Below the pieces are notes generated by a model, which saw nothing but the letters and a program-made list of their open reading frames with translations, was not told where the DNA came from and did no database searches. DNA of 64,000 nt from Polytrichum commune (Eukaryota; Streptophyta; Polytrichopsida; Polytrichales; Polytrichaceae): contig OX485806.1 of assembly GCA_950295325.1 (NCBI GenBank), positions 16,306,001 to 16,370,000 on the forward strand. The letters are read 5' to 3'. The position numbers and the translations under genes were made by a program. The number at the start of each line of letters is the position of its first letter. The stretch's first letter is position 1. Shown here piece after piece: positions 292 to 63,774 of this stretch.

Positions 292-3200
292 TTACAAGCA
301 CTCATGGAGGACTAAGTCTGCAGGAGGTTGGCCATGGATGACGGCTTCCTGAAGAGTTCTCTCCCAGTCCGAAATCGTTAACCCGGGAGTCAATGGCCTG
401 CAACACACATGACCATGACCTTACATTGGTCATAGCAAGACGATATGTGGTGACCGTGAATTCAAGATCCAATGTTTTGTAATATGAATCATAGTACATG
501 TGGAAAGAGAAGAGATCCTGTGGAAAGACTTTCAAAGTAAAGCAGCGCAATTGTTTAATTCCTATTGATTAAGAAGATCATGTGAAACTACTTGAAAAAT
601 TCAGAAGCTGCAGAACAAAATTGAATGGAATGTAGCTTTTTGTAAAGATGATGATGATGATACCTTTCCTCCCTATTTTTGAATAGAGTCATTGGTTGAC
701 CTTTAGGCCACTCTGGTGCAGCCGCAGCCGCAGCCGCAGTTGAACTTGTTTCAACCGCAGCAGCAGCCTCTTTGAACTTCAAAGCTTTAGGATTCAACAT
801 CTTCGACTGCAACCCTTCGTTATTACAGCCAGGACTACTGTGATGCAACGCAGGAGAGTCGAAGATACAGCTTTCACCTGAGGGCTGAAGCAATTTGATG
901 TCCGTTCTTTTCTTGTCTTGAATTGCGAGAGGGAACTTGAAAGATATGTAAGTATCCCTGCTCACATCTCTGGACTCTTTAGTCAGTTTCTCGTCTAAGG
1001 ACTTGCTCACATGAGTAGTAGCACCATCACTGCAAGCATAACAAAAATTTGCAACATGCTGATTGTCAGATCAAGTCAGAGCCACATTACCACTACATTG
1101 TGCAATAATGTCACAAAATGCAGAAAGTAAAACAGATCATTCACCTCCTGAAATAAAATGTTGCAGAGTTTAATGAATGTATGTACATACCCGACTATGG
1201 AAGCCTCGTGAGAAGTAGTAGTAGTAGTAGTAGTAGTGGTTTCCTTAAGACCGGCTATGGCTGCAGTAGGCCTTCGCTGCTGCTGCTGCTGCTGCTGTCT
1301 GTTGGCCTCCTTGATGGTATCTTTGAAAAGATCTTCACACGATTTGGAGAGCTTGGGAACGTGAAGTGTGTGTTCCAATGTAGGGTTGAATACAACACTT
1401 GACTGTGATTCAGTCCCTTGCACAGAAGCTGCATGCCTCACAGCGGGTGCGATAACTAACTTATAACTTTTCATATCCGGTTTCACATCGACCACCTTAA
1501 TGTTCCCGTTTGAATCATTAACCATGGTGGCTTTCTTGTTCTGATGATCCCCAGGGGAGCCTGCTGCTGGATGGTGCAGGATGACCTCTGGGACTACAAC
1601 AACTTCTCTGCACCTCGCACTAGTGTCATAAGTGTCACTACTAACTGCTCGTGTAGTATTTTCTGGTCGAGTTAACCCTGGATTTTTCCTTGCAAATCTG
1701 GCCATGGACTTGCGCTCTCTGGCTACCAGCTTGCTGTTGATTGTGCCATCCTCCTTCATTTCCAGGAAATCAAATAGGCTTTTAACCTCTTTCGCTGGTT
1801 TATCAGGGGACAGACCAGAGCTGCCAATGATATTCCTCTGAGTCTTGTCTTCGAAACTAGAGTTGTTGTTCACCTGTGTCTTTTCGAAGATTAGAGCCTT
1901 CTTCACTACCTTGCTTGCTTTGCTTCCATGTTTGGAAAGGTTAGGGTCATCCACTGTGTTATTAGTCTCCACAACATCTACATGTCGGCACAACTGTGGT
2001 CTATGGAACCTGCTTGCCTTCCTCATCAAGAACAGAAACGGGTCTCCTGGTAAACACGGTGCACATCCTGCACTGGAACCCATGGCTTCTAAATTGAGGA
2101 CATCTCTGGAAACAAAATTCTCATGATCCTGGGAGGTTAGGATGGGACTTTTGATGCTACTGAGGGGAGTTGAGAAGATATTGGTAGTACTGTCGCTCTT
2201 CAACTCAGCTACTTCTGACTTTATCCAAGTTCTTCTTAGACTTTCCTCTCTTAGGGTTTCACCACCTTCAGGCTGCAAGGACTCCTTCATAGCTACCACC
2301 ACATGATGATGATGTCTTGGCGATGGCGAAACTTCACTATCTGAGGATGTGGTGCTGCAGTAATTCTCAGTGAGGGAGCTTGTACTGCTGTGCTTTGCAT
2401 TAACAGCAGCCACTTCTGTGACATTCAAGCATGTGTTCGTGTCTATTCTTCTTGTCCTTTCGATGCTTCTCTTGGTCTCATCACATGGACATGTACCGCT
2501 GCTGGAAAAATCGCTATGATCCACACTGCACATCTCTGGTGCTGTTATGCTACGTGAAAGGCTGAACATTATTTCCTGGTTTAGGTCGATACTGCTGTCG
2601 GAGGGGTCATTGCAGACATCTCCAATGAGCTGGTATCTCTGGGAGATTGTTGAAGGTAAATCACATTCTACCTGTCTCAGCTGCTCCGGCTTGGCACATC
2701 GCATGGAATTAGACTTGCTTGGGGTTGATGATCTCCCAGCTCCCTCAGCCTCCATTGATGGAGATGACTTTCTTGCAAGATGCAGACATTCGGAGGAGAC
2801 ATGTGCTTGATCTACAGATAAGCAGAGGAGAGAAGATTAATAAGCTATGGAGAAGAGAAGATTATCTATGGAATTTGAGAGTTATTTCTGCAGCAAGTCA
2901 TAAGGTTTCGGCTTCCATATCCTGAATTTCACATACCTTGTGACGCATCAAAGACCTCCAGAGCTTTCAGGACATACTCGCCGCTACCGTGAAGAGGGAA
3001 AATGAGGTCATCGTCAAAGAGGTCGCACCAGATGAACGTGTCCTTGTAGTTCCTGTGGGCCAATCCGACCAAGCTTAAGACGATTTTCTTCTTGGCAAGA
3101 GACGACAATAAACAATGACCTATTAAGTCGCCAGGTTGCAATCGATTAAGAAAGTGTGTATCAACAACAAAAGGTCACCCGGAACAATGGCAGGGTACAT

Positions 3201-51891: not shown

Positions 51892-53251
51892 TCAAATAGA
51901 AGAAGATGCTATGATCACACCAAGATTATCATTGGATTCATTGAATCCAATAAGCTCACCCAAAGGACTCAAATGAAACCCACTTCTTGCAACTAGGGAT
52001 CCTAGTGCTTCAATTGCTGCAATGCGGTCGGTTGCATAAAAATCAAGGAAATCATATTCAGACTTGTGCAACAGGGCCTGAATCCATGCGGCGCTCACAA
52101 ATGCAGCAACAGAGGGTGCATTCTTGACGGCAATAGTTGCATTGATATGAATCACAAAAGAGCACGGAGCATCTAGCTTGCAAAGGTTGCAATGGTAATT
52201 ACCGGATTGTTGACAATAGATATCCCTGAGCTTACAATTACCACACACCCGCTTGTATGGTAATGCGGATGGATTGACCACAGTCATACACCCCGTAATC
52301 TGCAATAATTCAACAAGAAATGCACGTTCATATTTGCACATAATTTATAAAAATGAATGAAAGAAGAACACCAATCAAATAGAATAGTGTCATTACCTTC
52401 CGAGCAACAACTTGGCCCTGATTTTTGATGTGTGTGTTGAAAATAACGGTAAGCTTGGATTTCAATGTGTTAGAGTGAATTGGTGCCAGAATAAATGACC
52501 CAATTGTAAGAAGCCGAACATCTTCTTTGTTGGAACATGCTACGTTTTTTATGATGATATGGGTAGGTTCACCTTTGCTGAATTGTTCCGCAAGTGAATG
52601 AAAATCACTTTGAAAAGCTGGTAAAAAACTCACATACATATACAAGCTAAAATTAGAAAAGATGAAGGTGATTCTCAAAATGACAATAATCAAAATAAGG
52701 TACTGGAAGTACTTACAACTTGAATTTCATCAGCATCATGTCCGTCAGACACTAGGAGCTAAAAATTTTGATCGACTTCTCCTCTCATGCCAATGACAGT
52801 AACAACAAGTGTGAAAGTGACAACCGGTTGGAGCATTCGCCGTGTAAAGGAATGGATCGTATCTGATACGTAGAAAAAAAAGTTTAATTGGAGGATCAAA
52901 TGGCGGAATCTCAGAGACCTTGATGGCAGTAGAGATATCTATTGTCCAATCTGAATCTCCCTTGTCATAATTTGACCGGCTTCTCACACTAAAATACTTC
53001 AACCGCAAAAACTTCCCCCTTTTTAGTTTATCCACGTGCGTTTTCACCAAATTTTCTTTCACAGTTACGGTTATAGTCGTTGTACCAACTGTGTCCGTAA
53101 CATCTGCGTGGAAAAACCAGTGAGTTGGAGATTTCGATGGTGACATGGTGCTCCCATAGCAAGACAATACAAAACACTCAAAAACCACATCCCGAATAGC
53201 ATTACCTATTTCTTCCAACAATACAGTGGGGCGCTCAGCTCGTTTCGTCAT
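51892..53251 (-). pseudogene. RPA1-like single-strand DNA-binding protein, decayed
   Basis: Exon-like blocks are 53251-52717, about 52617-52397 and 52299-51892. The first encodes an OB fold (HWFFHADVTDT, GKFLRLKYFSVRSR, DISTATKVSEI-like text) and then a second OB fold (LQPVVTFTLVVTVIGMRGEV, LLVSDGHDADEIQV) reached only through two lesions: an extra base in the run of eight T's (52874-52881) and an in-frame TAG at 52759-52761. The last block holds the RPA-type zinc ribbon, CGNCKLRDIYC...YHCNLC, and a C-terminal OB-like region. The phase at the first exon junction also fails. RPA-like proteins are encoded by the host and also carried by plant Helitrons. Because of the disruptions and the adjacent nuclease fragment I read this as transposon-derived, though a degenerate host copy is possible. 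An alternative start lies at 53305. Confidence 0.75.
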
Positions 53252-53305
53252 GATACCTCCAAAAGAACGATGACACACAAGGTAACAACAAGCAGAGGAA
53301 AACAA

Positions 53306-54140
53306 AGCCAGAGAGAGCTCTCAGGGAAGAATGAGGAGCTCGAAGAAGAATGAGGAAGAAGATGAAGGACGAGATTTGCATTGAAGCTCTTAGGAGGCGG
53401 CTCTACAGTTCTAGTCAGTTTACTTTTTATTTTTTACTTTTACGCCATAGTTTCAATGTTTAGCACTGTAGAGTTTCACTGTTCAGCAGCGTAACTTCTG
53501 AAAACGCAACGTTTTCGTGGTCTCTCCCCTTTAGGGGCAGAGACAATAAATGCCTCTATGTTTGTAAGAGTCACTTACTTGGCACACTTGTTTCAAATTT
53601 AGGTACTCATGGGCTTGTGGTCGATATCAAAGATTGAAAAAATTAAGCAACAATTACAAGCTTCAAGTAGGGTACTATAATCGCTACAATACAAATTGCA
53701 AGGTCTTTCAATGTTGTTCCATTAACCAATGCAACATGGCTTCATAATTTAGGTGAAAACTTTGTGTTGCACTCCATCTTCATCACTGTCTCTTGCCACC
53801 AAAGTGGGTCCCCAAGGAGATGCACATACTTTTATGTACCATAGCATGTGCATGCGGATTCATGGTGTTTATGTAAACTCATCCATTAGCAAGATGAAAA
53901 TGCACCAAACTATATTACAGTATGCAAATAACCATTCCAAGAACATTTGACTCTGAAAATGGCATCTAAGATCTCATATGAGTCTAGTGGACTCTAATTG
54001 GAATGAAGCGACCCTCAACCTTTTAGGAGACATGTTTTTATTAGAACCCCTTCATCCACGATGGATGAGTTTACATAGACGCCATGAACCCCAAGCCATA
54101 GCATGTACATTCATCTAAGGGGGTTACTTTCTCAAAACCA
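53306..54140. other. Intergenic, no gene seen
   Basis: No coding exon recognised. The text CATCCACGATGGATGAGTTT near 54054 is shared with 31986-32010, just upstream of the LINE tail, suggesting another repeat fragment. Confidence 0.45.
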
Positions 54141-55368: not shown

Positions 55369-56798
55369 ACGTGAACGGTAATAGGGGCAGGAGGGTCAGC
55401 TTGTCACCGCTATGGTGTGTGCTAGTGTATACACATGACTTCTGTTTTCTTGTTCTTTGGCTCTCGAGTTTTGGGCGAAGTTGCGGTGGAAGCACAAGGA
55501 AATTCGGTTTCTTGCATGGTCAGTCTCTCAATTTCAAATCTTTCAGTTGTAATCTTGCCATTTTTGGTGCAGAATCGAGCTGGAAATCTCGAAACTGTGC
55601 ATTGAAGCACCTTACCTCTATGCTTTTGACGAACCGGGAGTGTCTCGGTTTGGTTTTGAGCGGCATTTTATTCTTTTTTTCTTTCTTTCTCTCTGGTTCT
55701 GGAAAGAAACAGGTGAAATCTCTTGAGATTATGTTGATTCGGTGCAAATTGACAGAAATTTTCGGTTCACAGAGCCTGAGTTGCGCGTCTGCTTCTGTGT
55801 GAGGGTAGCTTGTAATTATGGACATGAGGAAGGGTTTGGAGGGGTTTGAGATTTTTTAATCTTTTTGCGGGTCAAACTTGTTTCTATGATTGTTATGCAC
55901 TTCATTTTGACAGGGCTGGAGAATTTTGTGTTGGGGATATGCTGTTTCTGGGTTGGTAGATTAGGTTGAGATTTCAGCTCCAATTTGACTCAGACGAGTC
56001 CAGAAGAAGGAAGAATAAAAACTTTCATAGAATTGAACTTTATACCGTAATCGCTGCTCAAATCTGATGCAATGTTTGAATTCAAAATAGTACTCCAGAG
56101 ATTTAGGACTGTGAATTCTAGTGGATGTTCAGCTGTTTCTTGGTGAGGCAGATTACCTATGGCCTAGAAATTTCAGTAATTAGACCTTGATTAGTTGTAC
56201 TTAAATTCCTTAATAGCGGTGACAGTGGTAAGTTTTGTGGCATTGAAATTATGCTATTTGAAGCCGATTCTATACACTAATGTTGCTTTTTGGCAACTAA
56301 TCAGTCAAAATTAACAAAAAAAGACGCTGTACGTCATTTTTTTCTGCACTTCAATAGTTTTCTCATCTTATTCTACAACTTTTGGTAGCCCAACATTTGT
56401 TTTCCCTGGTCATTAAGATGCCATTTTGGCTGCAATCACTGTCCTCCAACTTCGAGAAAATTGAGACCGATGTTCTTGCAATGTCCTACCACATTTATGC
56501 CCTTTAACCTAACAACTAACAGAATTGGAGCTCTTACATGATTAGAAGGTTTTGATTCATATTTTTGAGTCTTTTTGAATGTTCACAGATGTAGAACTAA
56601 AACAAGTACTGGCACATAGCTGATGTCCTTCCACTACATGAGTACTCAAAAGGCTTTTTCTTGATACGTAACCTTTATGTGGTCTTCAATACCATCACAT
56701 TGTTCATCATTTTCACTTCCTAGTTTAGTTGATTGATGGCCTGTTTGACATTCGTGTGCAGGTGGAAAGCATTGGCGAGAGTATAAGACGCAATAAAA
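55369..56798 (+). other. Probable untranslated leader and leader intron of the SDR-MDR gene
   Basis: No coding exon is recognisable. A leader exon near 55.4-55.5 kb, an intron of about 1.2 kb, and a second leader piece at 56761-56798 would explain the splice acceptor just before the start codon. The 146-codon plus-strand frame at 55362 has no recognisable domain. Confidence 0.45.
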
Positions 56799-59700
56799 AT
56801 GAAGGTTGAAATAGGGCAAGCTGCTGTGATCACAGGAGCTGCCAGTGGGATAGGTTGCTCTTCACAAAATACCTTGTTTGTTTTTGACAGTTTTTTGTTC
56901 TAAGAAACTTTTTACCATCAACTTTGAATATTAGTTGGAGTACTTTGCAGATGTTGCAATAGACATTTGGGTATTTGCACAATGTGATTGATGAATAAAC
57001 TTCCTTCATACCTCTTACAAAAGGGCATCATTTTCTGCCACTTAGTTAAACTAAGTGGTCAATTGTGATCAAGGTCCTTCGTAATGGTTTTGGAATGAAA
57101 ATCTGACCTTGTTTTTGTTTTTTTATTAAATTATTTTAATGTTTCTGTTTTCCTCCTGTCCAGGAAGGGCACTTGCTGTGGCCCTTGCAAAGAGGGGGGT
57201 TCGAATTTCTGTTCTTGATCTGTCACCCAAATTAGCAGAAGAAACTGTGCGTCTTGTAAAAGAAGAGCATGAAAAGATTTCTTACAAGCCTAGTACACCT
57301 TCGGCCATATTCATCAAATGTGATGTGACCAAGACAGGTAATTTTACGTGGCAATTTTATTTTATCTCCATTCTTTTCTGTTATCCGCTTTAAATTGCGA
57401 GCAGTCCTTGATTTTCTTCAAGAAGCCGCAAAATAGTTGCTGATTACCGGACCTCAAATCATAAACTCACTATTGAAACTGGCTAGTGGCCAACTATTCC
57501 AATCCTGAAAGAGAACAAATCGTGTCACCTTTTGCTCTTACAAGGTAGTTGAGAATGAGGGCACGCTTTGTGTTGGAATTCTCGTTTTACAACTCCATTA
57601 GAGAGAGGTTCATTCTCCTGTTTCAGACTGTAGTGCTAGGTTGTCTCAAAACTTTCTACCAGCTTGATCATCAGGTTGATTTTATATAGCCATTAATCTC
57701 ACAAACGCCACTGCACTCCATTAATCTAGAGGAATTTAGCCATTTTGACTCCACCTTGATGTACTTCTAGTTCCATAATTTAGTCTTTTGGCTTCCTGTA
57801 CTTAAAAAATCAATCCCATTTCATTCTAGTATTAAATATGGCTGAGTCTAATATTATACCATCCTCATATTTAGGTGACTTGGTTGCTGCATTCGACCAT
57901 CACCGAAGCATTTTTGGACAGGTGGATATATGTATCAACAATGCTGGTGTAGCAGAAAAACCATCTGATGTTTTTTATGAAGACAAAAGTGTGGACGGCA
58001 AAGGGTCGTGGCGCAGGGTCATGGACATCAATCTCACTGCTGTTATTGATGGCACGCGCCTTGCAGTAAGGAGACCCCTCTTTGTTTTAATTTTTTTCTG
58101 AAATTGGGTTATGGGTACCTTGGGTCTGAATGGGACTTTTTGTCAGGAGTTGGTCCCCTATACTTTTTCATTGGTTGTTATGCATCCAATATCAATAAAT
58201 ATCTTTCTAGTTGTGGTGCATTCTCAGAGGAGTGTTAAATATTGGATATAGAGCAACCTGTTTTGATTCATTGAGGGCCAAGATTATCTTAGTACTTCTT
58301 GAGTTTAATCCTCAGTGAACCGATATAGGATGTTCTCTGTTCACACCTTCAAACTACCTCCAAATATTCACTTCAAACTTACCAAACATGGAAAAGGTTT
58401 TGTAATCAAAACAACGAACTCCTGATCACATTCATGTTGAGTTAGAGGATAACTCTAATACATCATACAAAATACATGTTGAGTTAGAGAATCGAAGTGG
58501 GAATTGAAGAAATCTGATGGAAGGTTGAAGAGGATGTATGTTGACATTGACAGCAATCACAATTGGTCAAGGGTAGGCGACTTACAAAGTTCGTTAGAAG
58601 AGAATTTTTATTTGAGTGTCCTCATTTGTATTTGTTGGTTTTGCCAGGTTCAAGCGATGAAAGGCAGAGGAGGCCTTATTCTGAATATTGGATCTGCAGC
58701 TGGCTTGTATCCCATGCAGTTTGGTCCCATTTATAGTGCTAGTAAAGGTCTGTCAACACTTTCCATTTTCCAAATCATGTAATTCAAACTACTTCTAGGC
58801 CTAATTTCTCAATCAAATCGGAAAAAGAGAATGACAACAACAATTCGTCCTCTGTCTGAATTCTTGCATTCACAAGACATTGTTTTACGATTTCGTTATT
58901 ATCACTTGCAAACTACTATCATGTGGAATGAGGAAAGACCAATGACAATTCTTTTTGGTTGATGCAGGTGGTGTAGTCATGTTCACAAGGTCTCTACTTT
59001 CTCTGAAAAAAATGGGAATTCGTGCAAATGTGCTCTGCCCTGAGGTCCAGAAACACTTAAACTTCATCACTTGTCTTGCATCCCTTATCTTTCAGTTTTT
59101 TCTCTTTGTTTTCATATTGCCACTAAGGTAGACACGTCTTAAATGGTTACTTTTTCATGTCCGCTATGAAAAACAACTCTTATGCGCAAACTCTAAATTT
59201 TGGCTGATCCACAAATGTGGATAAAGAAGCCATGTTCAATCGCAGAGAAATTTGGAGCCATGCACCACTCAAATATAGGTGTTTATTCAAGATAAGTTAC
59301 CGAATTAGGTCCACTTACCGTATGTAGTGGACTTTACAGGTGTTAGGTTTTGTCGGTCAAAAGGAGGCTCTAAAATGTCACTTTGCTTCTGAAGGATTTT
59401 GTTCACTTTGTGGCATTGCAGTTTGTGGAGACTCCGCTTCTGAGCAACCTTCCACCACGGGAGACGGAATTTATTTACAAGATAAATGGAATAATGAGCA
59501 TGGATAGAGTAATTGAGGGTAAACATCCTGATCCAGAAAATACAGAGTACGAGTGTTGAATTGTGTGCAGAGAGATATGATAGTGTAGTGAAGTAAAATG
59601 TCACCTAAATATAAGTTGATTACAAAGCTTATCGTTTTAAACAGCTCAAAATACTGCCTTCAAAAGGTTGTGCTTATGTGAAGTTTGAAATTTCCAATCT

Positions 59701-62564
59701 AACAATTGAAAATCTAAATGCGTTGATGATCTGTAACAGGTGCATTCTTGATGTTTGATGATGAGAGCAAGGCAGGAGCATGCCTTTGGGTTCCTTCCAC
59801 GAAACCCACACAGTTTTGGCCAACAGACGAAGAGAAAAAAAAGTATCGGATTAATCCTGGTGGACCCAAGAAAATTGGAGGTGCTCCTACCCTGGCTCCA
59901 CCACCTCCAATCCCCGTAAAATATCAAAAAGTGTAAGTCTTTTCCAACCTGGAGTTCTTCTCCATGTTTGCATGGAAATTTATTTAGCTCATTCATGTTT
60001 TGGTTGCACTTTGGAAGGTTGACAGACCTCATTTAATATCACTATATCATGTGTTTCAGGGTTGTGCATAAATTGAGTAGCAATTTCAGAGACGCGACAA
60101 AGATTGTGACTGTACCCTATGACCTTCCTGTCAAGCCTGGCCACATTTTAATCAAATATCTTCATGTTGGAATAAATGCCAGCGATGTAAGTTCTTCTGA
60201 CTTGATACTCACATATTCCATCTTTTTGTATTGGAAGTCATTGCTGTCATATGATCATTTTGAGTTGAAATGGAATGTCTGTGAGTGGCCTTCTTTTGTT
60301 AGATTTATGGTCCAATCAATTTTAATTTTTCTAGTTTTGTAATCTCCTGATATTGGGTCATTGTCCTTGAATTAATGATTTATGAGTATGCCTGCAGATT
60401 AATTACAGTGCAGGTCGTTACCACGGGAGTGAAGAAAAAGCATTAGCCGATTTGCCATTTGATGCTGGATTTGAGGTGATGATATGCTCTTACATCTAAT
60501 TTTTTAAAGAAACCTTCGCCATCAGAATATTTTGAAGTATCAAGGATGGTATGTCTTGTGAGTTATGTAGACTATAAACTTGGTCTCCTAAAGTCAAACC
60601 CAGGGTTTTGCAGCTGATTCTAGTTATTTTTAAAATATATCTTGAAACTTATGAACTTAAAGGAGTTGAATTTTGTTGGATCTGCACAGGCTGTGGGGCT
60701 GATTGCTGGTATTGGCGAGGGTTTGGCCAGTTCTAACTTAAAACTTGGACTCCCAGTTGCCAGTGTAACATATGGAGGCTTTTCAGAATATCGTGAGGTA
60801 TTTTTTCTCTCAACCATTGTTTTAAGCAGGTCTAAAATGAGTGGGTCTAAAATAGACACGTTTAGCTCTCCACCCACTTCTCTTAGCATATCCAAATCGA
60901 GGCAATACCAAATTTCCTCATTATATTTGGAGCTCTTATGAATATCTTATTCATTATCAAAGTGAAAGTTCTCTTTCTTAAATGATCATACCCCCCCCCC
61001 CCAACCCCCCGCCCCCCGCAAATATGATGCTGACTATTGAATCTAGACTAGGTACTCAAATTTGAGCAAGTACTCTAATCCCTTTTTTTTGTTATGCTCA
61101 TGATCCTTATTGATGTCCGTTCTATCCATGCTTAACCACACACCAATCAAATATAGGTGCCTGTTAAAGATAAGTAACCGAGTTAAACCACCTTAGCTTA
61201 TCACATGAGATTACTTGTGGTTGGGGCGAGTTAGCAAAGGACCTTGCCACATAACGGGAATTTTAAGAGATTTTTTTTGAAGAATACAGGTAGCTTCAAA
61301 GCTTGTGTTGGCTGTACCCGCCGCAACTCCCGAAGTAGTGGCAATGCTGACCTCAGGGCTAACGGCATCTATTGGTCTTGAGCAGGTGATTAAACAATTC
61401 TATGACCTTCGTTTTTTAGGGGGAATGGTTTAGGGTTTAGGATTTAGGGTTCAAAAAGTTTGTGTAATTGCAAATACATAATCTCAAAGTCATTGAGCAC
61501 AATAATATCTTCGACTAAGTTAAAGTAATTGTTTGTCCTCTCCCAGGTCAGTTCAATGTGCCCAGTAAGAATATAAAACTAGAAACTTTACTGGCTTCTT
61601 GTTTGGTTCAATTTTGCTTGATATTTACAGCTTTGAAAGAGTGATGATATGTAACGATGGTTTCAGAATATCGTGATGATCTTCAGTCTAATTTGAAATT
61701 ATAGTTCAAGCTGTTTGAGGTTAAAGATTTGAACAAAACAACGCATTTTCACCATTTGATATGAGTTCTGTGGTAAGTCAGGCAGGAAGAATGAAGTCAG
61801 GGGAGACGGTTTTAGTCACTGCAGCTGCAGGAGGAACTGGCCAATTTGCTGTCCAGGTAAATTTTGAAATTAGCCTTGACTTGTTAATCCAAATTCCAGC
61901 TGATTGTGTGAATGGCTTGAAATGGGCAGTCTGCCAGGAGCTTTCTGCTTGAAAAAATTACAATGGAACATGCTCTTGCTAAGATTTATTGAGAATCAGC
62001 TGATGGTGAATTTCTGGACTGGTCAAATCGGTGATGCCATTAGTTGTCTTGCCATCTCAAAAGTTGTATTATTTACGGCCTTAATGGACTGTGCATGTGG
62101 GGACCATTTTTCTGAATGATAAATCCAAAACCCCTTCACACTAGAGCTTGAGTTGAGAGCTCAAAGTTGCAATTTTCGGGAGTTTGATACTTGGAGATAC
62201 TTTGATACTTGATGCTTGAATCCAAAGCTCTAACTATTGAAAGCTTGACTGATCTTCAACCTCAATAGTTTGAGCAAGTGTAAATTGACCATGCTTCAAG
62301 TGAGAAATTAATGGGGTATATAATACTAAACAAGAAGTCATCATGACAAGCCAAAGACTGCTGGAAAGCCCACAAAATGCAAGCTAGAACTCTCGAACAT
62401 TCCTACGCTACATCATGGAGGTAGCTTACGATTCTGATTAAATTTGTCAAAAAATGAGCAAGCGCATGCTTGTCATAATCGTTCCACATGAGATCCATCA
62501 AGGTGCCATCTACACGTTGCAAGTCTGCTAAAAAGTTGAAGCTCTTGAGTTGAGAGCTCTGTGT

Positions 62565-62602
<38 letters not shown>

Positions 62603-63774
62603 GGATATGACATACTCAGACTTGTTTTTCTCTAAAAGCATTTTATTTTGGCCAATTTTCTCTTTGCTGTACAGTTAGCCAAGATAGCAGGCAATAAGGT
62701 TGTAGCTACATGCGGTGGCGCAGACAAGGCTGCACTCCTTCATGAATTGGGTGTAGACCGGGTTATTGACTACAAGAAAGAGACAATAAAAACGGTATGT
62801 GCACCCTACAAAAGCAGCTAAATATTTAATCTCACTCTTGAAAAATAATCAATTTGTCGCCCGAAATCTAGTGTTTGCGAAATAGACTTGAAATTGATAC
62901 TGAAATGGGCTACCTGCCCTTCCTGAGCTTTGCAAGTGGTGTTTCAGGTCTTGAAGCAGGAGTATCCAAAAGGTGTGGATTTGATTTATGAATCAGTGGG
63001 AGGACAGATGTTTGAAACATGCATGAATGCGTTGGCGGTTTACGGTCGCATGGTGGTCATTGGGATGATTTCACAGGTCTATTTTTCTACTCATATTCTT
63101 TGTATTTTTTTCTTAGCCGCACGTTTTGAGGCCAACAACTTCTCACCTTGGACTTGAGCAATGTTTTCCACAAAGAAATGTCAGTGAAAGTTATGATCAA
63201 TCCAGAAATGAACTCAGTGGTAGACAACTGGTTGCACAAATTTAGCCTCTTATCCCAAGTCAAGTCAATTATAGGGCACTTTTTTCCCACTGCATTTAAA
63301 TCAGCCAAACCTTTGTTTTGGAGATTTCTGTTATATTTATTTTCTTAAAGAAATGCTGTTCACTGGCATTTTGAGCTACTTTTTTGGTGAAAGTCATTGT
63401 CTTAGCCAGTATATCCAGAGGAAGACACTATATAAAGTCTAAAAACCATAATTTTTTGGGTTGCAGTATACAGAGGGTGCTGAAGGGGGATGGAAGCCAG
63501 CTACTTACCCTGGCCTTTGTGAGAAGCTTCTTTGGAAGTCTCAAACAGTGGTAACTATCACTTTTATTTTCAATGTCATTTTCGTTCACCACGCCAGTAT
63601 TGCGGTTTTCATGTTGAAAGTGGTAAACCACATCCTTTGTTCCGGATTCTTAAACCAAAGTAAATGTTTTTGGGGGTATTTGGGCAGGCTGGATTTTTCT
63701 TGAATCACTACGTCAAACTGTGGCAAGAGCATATATGGAAACTATACGATTTATACAGTTCTGGTAAACTTAAG
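56799..63774 (+). CDS. Fusion of HPGD-like SDR and PTGR3-like MDR, 5' part (16 exons, runs off window)
   Basis: Exons: 56799-56853, 57164-57337, 57875-58065, 58648-58747, 58968-59044, 59422-59518, 59740-59932, 60060-60186, 60398-60475, 60690-60797, 61290-61385, 61782-61856, 62675-62794, 62948-63076, 63467-63550 and 63688-63774. All are in phase: 597 residues so far. Residues 1-231 form a classical [11 protein letters not shown] (12-19), D37 ending beta-2 (NAD preference), NNAG (98-101), and catalytic N129, S156, Y169, K173. It most resembles 15-hydroxyprostaglandin dehydrogenase (LCPEFVETPLL). Residues ~232-295 link to a zinc-free [39 protein letters not shown] (445-457), [13 protein letters not shown] and VIGMISQYTEG, matching prostaglandin reductase 3/ZADH2. 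In animals these two activities are consecutive steps in eicosanoid inactivation, so a bifunctional oxylipin enzyme is inferred. The last MDR exon should lie beyond 64000. The donor of exon 5 (GTCCAG) is weak. Confidence 0.9.
57540..57830 (+). mobile_element. LINE 3' end in intron 2 of the SDR-MDR gene
   Basis: GAGAATGAGGGCACGCTTTG, CATTAGAGAGAGGTTCATT, CAGCTTGATCATCAGGTTGA, CCACTGCACTCCATTAATCT and CCACCTTGATGTACTTCTAG parallel the 32.05-32.35 kb copy through the coding end and the 3' untranslated part. Full of stops. Same strand as the host gene. Confidence 0.75.
59115..59290 (+). repeat. Family-C repeat fragment in intron 5
   Basis: GCCATGCACCACTCAAATATAGGTG and AAGATAAGTTACCGAATTAGG match the end of other copies (60850-61200). 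Located between exons 5 and 6 of the SDR-MDR gene. Confidence 0.6.
60850..61200 (+). repeat. Family-C repeat in intron 10
   Basis: AGACACGTTTAGCTCTCCAC, CCACTTCTCTTAGCATATCC, ATATCTTATTCATTATC, a C-run (60991-61016), TGCTGACTATTGAATCTAGA, and CAATCAAATATAGGTGCCTG with AAGATAAGTAACCGAG at the end. The most complete copy in the window. Confidence 0.7.
61429..61452 (+). repeat. Short telomere-like TTTAGGG run in intron 11
   Basis: About three plant-telomere-type units, one with a substitution (TTTAGGGTTTAGGATTTAGGG). Too short for a telomere; an interstitial trace. Confidence 0.7.
62568..62597 (+). repeat. CT microsatellite in intron 12
   Basis: Fifteen CT units about 77 bases before exon 13 of the SDR-MDR gene. 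It may lengthen the pyrimidine tract context but the acceptor itself is ordinary. Confidence 0.85.

Follow-up and report, generated by a model that had tools for sequence, protein, structure and literature searches.

Two enzymes that take consecutive steps of prostaglandin inactivation are kept separate in animals, and the question raised by a gene of the moss Polytrichum commune is whether relatives of both are tethered here in one protein, and what such a protein would do. The gene starts at position 56799 of a 64,000-nucleotide stretch (C4:16306001-16370000, called the window below), where a reading of the letters alone had predicted a single polypeptide that joins a short-chain dehydrogenase/reductase (SDR) resembling human 15-PGDH to a zinc-free medium-chain dehydrogenase/reductase (MDR) of the PTGR3/ZADH2 type. 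We find this architecture in the gene structure and discuss how far the two halves, which belong to two known families here fused in a plant, resemble their animal relatives.

Gene structure of the fusion

All 16 in-phase exons of the original prediction were recovered at the positions claimed for them (56799-63774). The 15 introns between them all run from GT to AG, and the joined frame stays open for 597 codons. Two further exons lie just past the end of the window, exon 17 adding 29 amino acids and exon 18 reading VKRGN-stop, and the complete gene has 18 exons and encodes 631 amino acids. An in-frame stop at 56784 lies 15 bases 5' of the ATG. A chance reading frame is ruled out by the 43 and 38 stops found in the other two frames of the spliced DNA. 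Pfam models placed on the 597-residue part, all above cut-off, are adh_short (8-210), ADH_N (321-410) and ADH_zinc_N (450-580), and the protein consists of a full classical SDR followed, behind a Pro-rich linker, by a full zinc-free MDR. The strongest argument for one gene is exon 7, which carries the join within a single exon: it runs without interruption or stop from the C-terminus of the SDR through the linker into the beginning of the MDR. In addition, the frame has no Met between residue 236, inside the SDR, and residue 419, inside the MDR, and two misjoined genes are very unlikely because an MDR half would have no in-frame Met before residue 419. That two neighbouring genes were joined in error, or are mostly transcribed separately, is the weakest of the alternatives and highly improbable, since exon 7 and the Met gap rule out a misjoin and introns 6 and 7 are short (221 and 127 bases), while separate transcripts gain a point from intron 7, the retention of which would end translation at once (KYQKV-stop) and leave an SDR-only chain. 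An SDR-only isoform made in this way is possible. Thus, the claim of one polypeptide is borne out by the in-phase exons, the intra-exonic join and the Met gap, and we have little doubt that the fused structure in one gene is real.

The linker itself had been described differently, as about 64 residues with conserved and maybe structured text of its own. It measures 23 residues (268-290), and the text quoted for it belongs to the SDR. This emerged from two unfused 15-PGDH-like SDR paralogues on contig C5, which point in opposite directions and are separated by about 40 kb. Over exons 2-7, the ones found in them, their identity to the fused SDR is 56% and 54%; their first exons were looked for and not found. 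Both share with the fused SDR the C-terminal text DES/DET-KSG..W...KPTQ.WP.D and end soon past it, with ...QMKDGSPLHL and ...LLADLVMK. The same text and the prompt stop in unfused proteins identify it as the native C-terminus of the SDR, and a conserved, structured linker is thereby ruled out in favour of that C-terminus and a short spacer rich in Pro. No match to the MDR better than E 3 was seen in the stretch of roughly 4 kb examined downstream of each paralogue. The paralogues therefore have the corresponding exons 2-7 and the C-terminal text, but the fusion alone continues into an MDR, and it may have arisen through a PTGR3-like MDR joined behind such an SDR. Either paralogue may be impaired: in the minus-strand copy the catalytic Asn is exchanged for Asp, and in the plus-strand copy exon 5 is not preceded by an in-phase AG. 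As a separate observation, introns 5 and 10 of the fusion gene (window 59256-59345 and 61126-61215) seemingly have in common a diverged element of about 66 bases, CAAATATAGGTG...GATAAGT.ACCGA.TTA, which is perhaps a small mobile repeat.

The two halves and their animal relatives

Compared with solved structures, the SDR half finds human 15-PGDH (HPGD, SDR36C1; PDB 2gdz) as its best match with 114.7 bits, and the next other protein reaches 93.6. For the reverse comparison spliced proteins were used, because exon-by-exon searches of the genome (408 Mb, 64 contigs) with the human proteins misled; a search of that kind favours single-exon genes. Nine loci picked from the two lists that the human queries gave, a selection of the loci listed, entered these spliced comparisons, and it is in the spliced comparison alone that the fusion gene comes out best for both human 15-PGDH and human PTGR3. 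With human 15-PGDH as query, the fused SDR then reaches 135 bits and the C5 paralogues 122 and 118, and none of the seven other fetched SDR loci exceeds 80. Thus, human 15-PGDH and the fused SDR are each other's best match among the 10 SDR sequences compared, in agreement with the predicted 15-PGDH-like character. A tree of 11 sequences groups human 15-PGDH with the fused SDR and the two paralogues on C5 at 93/94, a moderate support that is below the star level of the tool and comes with a long-branch warning. The SDR half is a complete classical one, as had been claimed, with N129, S156, Y169 and K173 at the places of human Asn107, Ser138, Tyr151 and Lys155, and D37 and D72 correspond to Asp36 and Asp64 (numbering and roles of the human residues from part of PMC2970562). 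The TGxxxGxG motif is likewise kept and the C-terminus can be aligned. NAD+ is the predicted cofactor of the SDR because the equivalents of Asp36 and Asp64 are kept, D37 standing after strand 2.

The best solved match of the MDR half is human PTGR3/ZADH2 (PDB 2x7h, 2c0c, 2wek), with 258.6 bits and 48-49% identity over about 300 residues; the next protein in the PDB that is not a PTGR3 has 104.4 bits, and among plant proteins there, double-bond and pulegone reductases reach about 92 at best. The half is thus closer to PTGR3 than to PTGR1, PTGR2, VAT1 or plant double-bond reductases. In the reverse direction, with human PTGR3 as query and three MDR sequences compared, the fused MDR reaches 259 bits and the two other fetched loci 71 and 51. 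Identical stretches of text (30 letters) are found between the two proteins; the motifs TAAAGGTGQ, YESVGG and GFFLNHY are kept, and the cofactor-strand motifs are those of PTGR3. The zinc ligands are absent: CxxD, the zinc-ligand pattern in MDRs, is replaced by NASD, and the half has just three scattered Cys (470, 522, 558). The assignment to a zinc-free MDR of the PTGR3/ZADH2 type is upheld by these scores and by the missing Cys pattern. ADK and IDYKK stand opposite DEK and INYKT in the alignment, and we take the Lys and Tyr in them to be the residues to which related enzymes bind the phosphate of NADPH. Both halves look catalytic on account of the SDR tetrad and the MDR cofactor motifs. A second PTGR3 copy was not seen in a genome search with the fused protein, which elsewhere gave matches to the MDR half of at most 47% over a single exon.

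A predicted two-step reaction and its alternatives

We propose that the gene gives rise to one bifunctional enzyme for lipid-like allylic alcohols. Its SDR half would use NAD+ to oxidize an allylic secondary alcohol to an enone, and its MDR half would use NADPH to reduce the conjugated double bond of that enone, so that a saturated ketone is formed and the reactive enone is removed. Tethering would pass on the reactive intermediate or clear it locally, and both steps could run downhill because the halves draw on different cofactor pools. The likeliest substrates would be lipoxygenase-made hydroxy fatty acids such as 13-hydroxy C18 and 15-hydroxy C20 acids. We infer the expression, cofactors, reaction order, channelling and substrate class of the fusion, and for this functional statement as a whole we see about even chances. 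In line with it, mouse PTGR3 acts as a 15-oxoprostaglandin delta-13 reductase (in part of PMC8919083). In a narrower form, seed-free land plants would inactivate 15-hydroxy C20 oxylipins with one fusion that leads from the 15-hydroxy over the 15-oxo to the 13,14-dihydro-15-oxo compound on a single chain. This narrower form is doubtful, with perhaps one chance in a handful or slightly better; if true, the fusion would count as a natural Rosetta-stone argument for placing 15-PGDH and PTGR3 in the same pathway. The tethering of the two halves in a plant that may be able to make C20 fatty acids also raises the question of a dedicated route of early land plants that switches off C18/C20 oxylipin signals.

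Several observations weigh against the proposed function, and some against a strict prostaglandin role in particular. At the place of human Gln148 the fused SDR has Gly166, and the C5 paralogues have Thr and Ala; the exchange Q148A inactivates human 15-PGDH, although a Gln at this place is not universal among SDRs (both from part of PMC8512612). Tyr217 aligns with Asn221, and 11 residues of the lid are missing, including the stretch with human Ile210 and Ile214. The identity of the SDR to human 15-PGDH is just 33-37%. The raw exon-by-exon genome search with human 15-PGDH gave ten places, among them neither the fusion gene nor the C5 paralogues, and the one with human PTGR3 ranked one exon of the fusion gene second of eight (51 versus 54 bits). 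At the other end, the fusion protein terminates in KVKRGN, without the peroxisomal SKL of animal PTGR3, which is found in human and most fish PTGR3 (in part of PMC8919083); we do not use this ending to delimit the enzyme family. Hence we call the SDR 15-PGDH-like and not a 15-PGDH, because Gln148 is replaced by Gly166. Together with the exchange of Tyr217 and the lid shorter by 11 residues, this points to a pocket that differs from that of a strict 15-PGDH and weakens the prostaglandin-type role. Besides these residues, the attached MDR sets the fusion apart from human 15-PGDH, just as its position behind an SDR sets the MDR apart from human PTGR3.

Allylic-alcohol SDRs and double-bond-reductase MDRs act in the monoterpene routes of mint, and a bifunctional SDR-MDR for other chemistry, i.e. 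for terpenoid or phenolic allylic alcohols or a general clearing of reactive carbonyls, is the alternative that survives best. The changed pocket speaks for it, and so do the pulegone reductases among the weaker PDB matches of the MDR, but the MDR is far nearer to PTGR3 than to those plant reductases, and we regard other chemistry as possible, if on balance unlikely. Less probable again is a reverse order, in which the MDR would first reduce the enone and the SDR would then reduce the ketone to a saturated alcohol. SDR reactions are reversible, and loss of Gln148 leaves the side of alcohol recognition open; D37, however, speaks for NAD(H) as cofactor and hence, under the usual conditions in cells, for oxidation, and we give this order a small chance.

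Oxylipin setting, distribution and further features

The prediction had called a fused oxylipin enzyme plausible in seed-free plants because many of them make C20 polyunsaturated fatty acids, and the genome is compatible with such a setting. LFY, which is not known outside plants, has four matches here and none in any of 14 control genomes, as expected of a land plant or a close relative. Lipoxygenases are represented by 58 exon matches and ELO by five matches, with the elongase motifs QITFLHVYHH and MYAYY at a locus on contig C2 and RQIQSLHLYHH at one on contig C3, which we assume to be of the polyunsaturated fatty acid (PUFA) elongase type of mosses and liverworts. Besides these multi-exon loci, there is a single-exon ELO-family gene (L020, G000:C6:29493736-29494446; 298-residue frame, 228 bits) that may have an origin other than theirs. 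Bryophytes make arachidonic and eicosapentaenoic acids (in parts of PMC13364333 and, for mosses, PMC4490225). Three liverwort lipoxygenases prefer these acids and oxygenate carbon 15, one of them also carbon 11, and liverwort lipoxygenases make 15S-hydroperoxides from C20 acids (part of PMC13364333). Taken together, the lipoxygenases, the PUFA-type elongase motifs and the C20 acids of bryophytes make 15-hydroxy C20 substrates plausible for this plant.

Outside plants, a scan of prokaryotic genomes returned six loci, of which four encode full-length PTGR3-like proteins of 40-43% identity and two give partial and weaker matches. The four are full length like the fusion MDR, but stand alone. In three phyla, of which 398, 396 and 301 genomes were sampled with the best 5-7 candidates per genome scored, a match at E <= 1e-100 occurred in 1, 1 and 2 genomes, each count including the seed genome, and none of the five PTGR3-like frames in these samples (334-348 residues) is fused to an SDR. 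PTGR3-like proteins are rare among the sampled bacteria. A second PTGR3-like copy is present in the Anaerolineaceae seed genome (G002:C6:66-1061), and one was seen in another genome of the same phylum (L018, G1084). Scans of viral contigs, one with the MDR by itself and two with alignments, gave 3, 68 and 357 pattern stretches and no relative, and no single place in the 131 matching phage records spans 80% of the query. On plasmids, places that span 80% or more of the query occur in at least 129 records; the best 30 of these places are 1.7-2.7 kb long at 29-34% identity and have, in nearly all cases, SDR and MDR as separate features, so that the plasmid pairs among the matches listed are read as ordinary neighbours. 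A fused relative is absent from the viral, phage and plasmid matches listed. Among the open-access papers listed in literature searches, none deals with a plant 15-PGDH/PTGR3 fusion. The main text of the plant SDR inventory (PMC3541173) mentions neither SDR36C nor prostaglandin nor a fusion, and the bryophyte jasmonate review (PMC13364333) does not use the word 'dehydrogenase' and describes hydroxylation-based catabolism as uncharacterised.

Table 1. Coordinates of the fusion gene and related loci; plain numbers are window positions.
Feature	Position	Strand	Content
Exon 1	56799..56853	+	Start codon, SDR first strand, TGAASGIG cofactor motif
Exon 2	57164..57337	+	SDR; Asp37 (NAD-type), Asp72
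Exon 3	57875..58065	+	SDR; NNAG, catalytic Asn129
Exon 4	58648..58747	+	SDR; catalytic Ser156, Tyr169, Lys173; Gly166 at the place of human Gln148
Exon 5	58968..59044	+	SDR
Exon 6	59422..59518	+	SDR; shortened lid region
Exon 7	59740..59932	+	SDR C-terminus to 59846, linker, MDR start from 59916
Linker	59847..59915	+	23 residues (268-290)
Exon 8	60060..60186	+	MDR; NASD, without zinc Cys
Exon 9	60398..60475	+	
Exon 10	60690..60797	+	MDR
Exon 11	61290..61385	+	MDR; Met419, first Met past residue 236
Exon 12	61782..61856	+	MDR cofactor motif
Exon 13	62675..62794	+	MDR; ADK and IDYKK
Exon 14	62948..63076	+	MDR; YESVGG
Exon 15	63467..63550	+	MDR
Exon 16	63688..63774	+	MDR; GFFLNHY
Exons 17, 18	L002:502-588 and 774-791		Outside window
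Unfused SDR paralogue, minus copy	L005, G000:C5:6399501-6408500	-	
Unfused SDR paralogue, plus copy	L006, G000:C5:6444001-6453500	+	
Bacterial PTGR3-like MDRs	L007-L010		40-44% identity, full length, stand-alone frames of 334-345 residues

Elsewhere in the window, the minus strand holds two frames of 586 and 160 residues (1076-2836 and 588-1070), rich in Ser and with homopolymer stretches, and two more of 150 and 191 residues with Cys-rich text (51892-53320); neither pair has a Pfam match at E 0.001. At the level of the genome, six contigs of 78 to 42 Mb suggest few large chromosomes.

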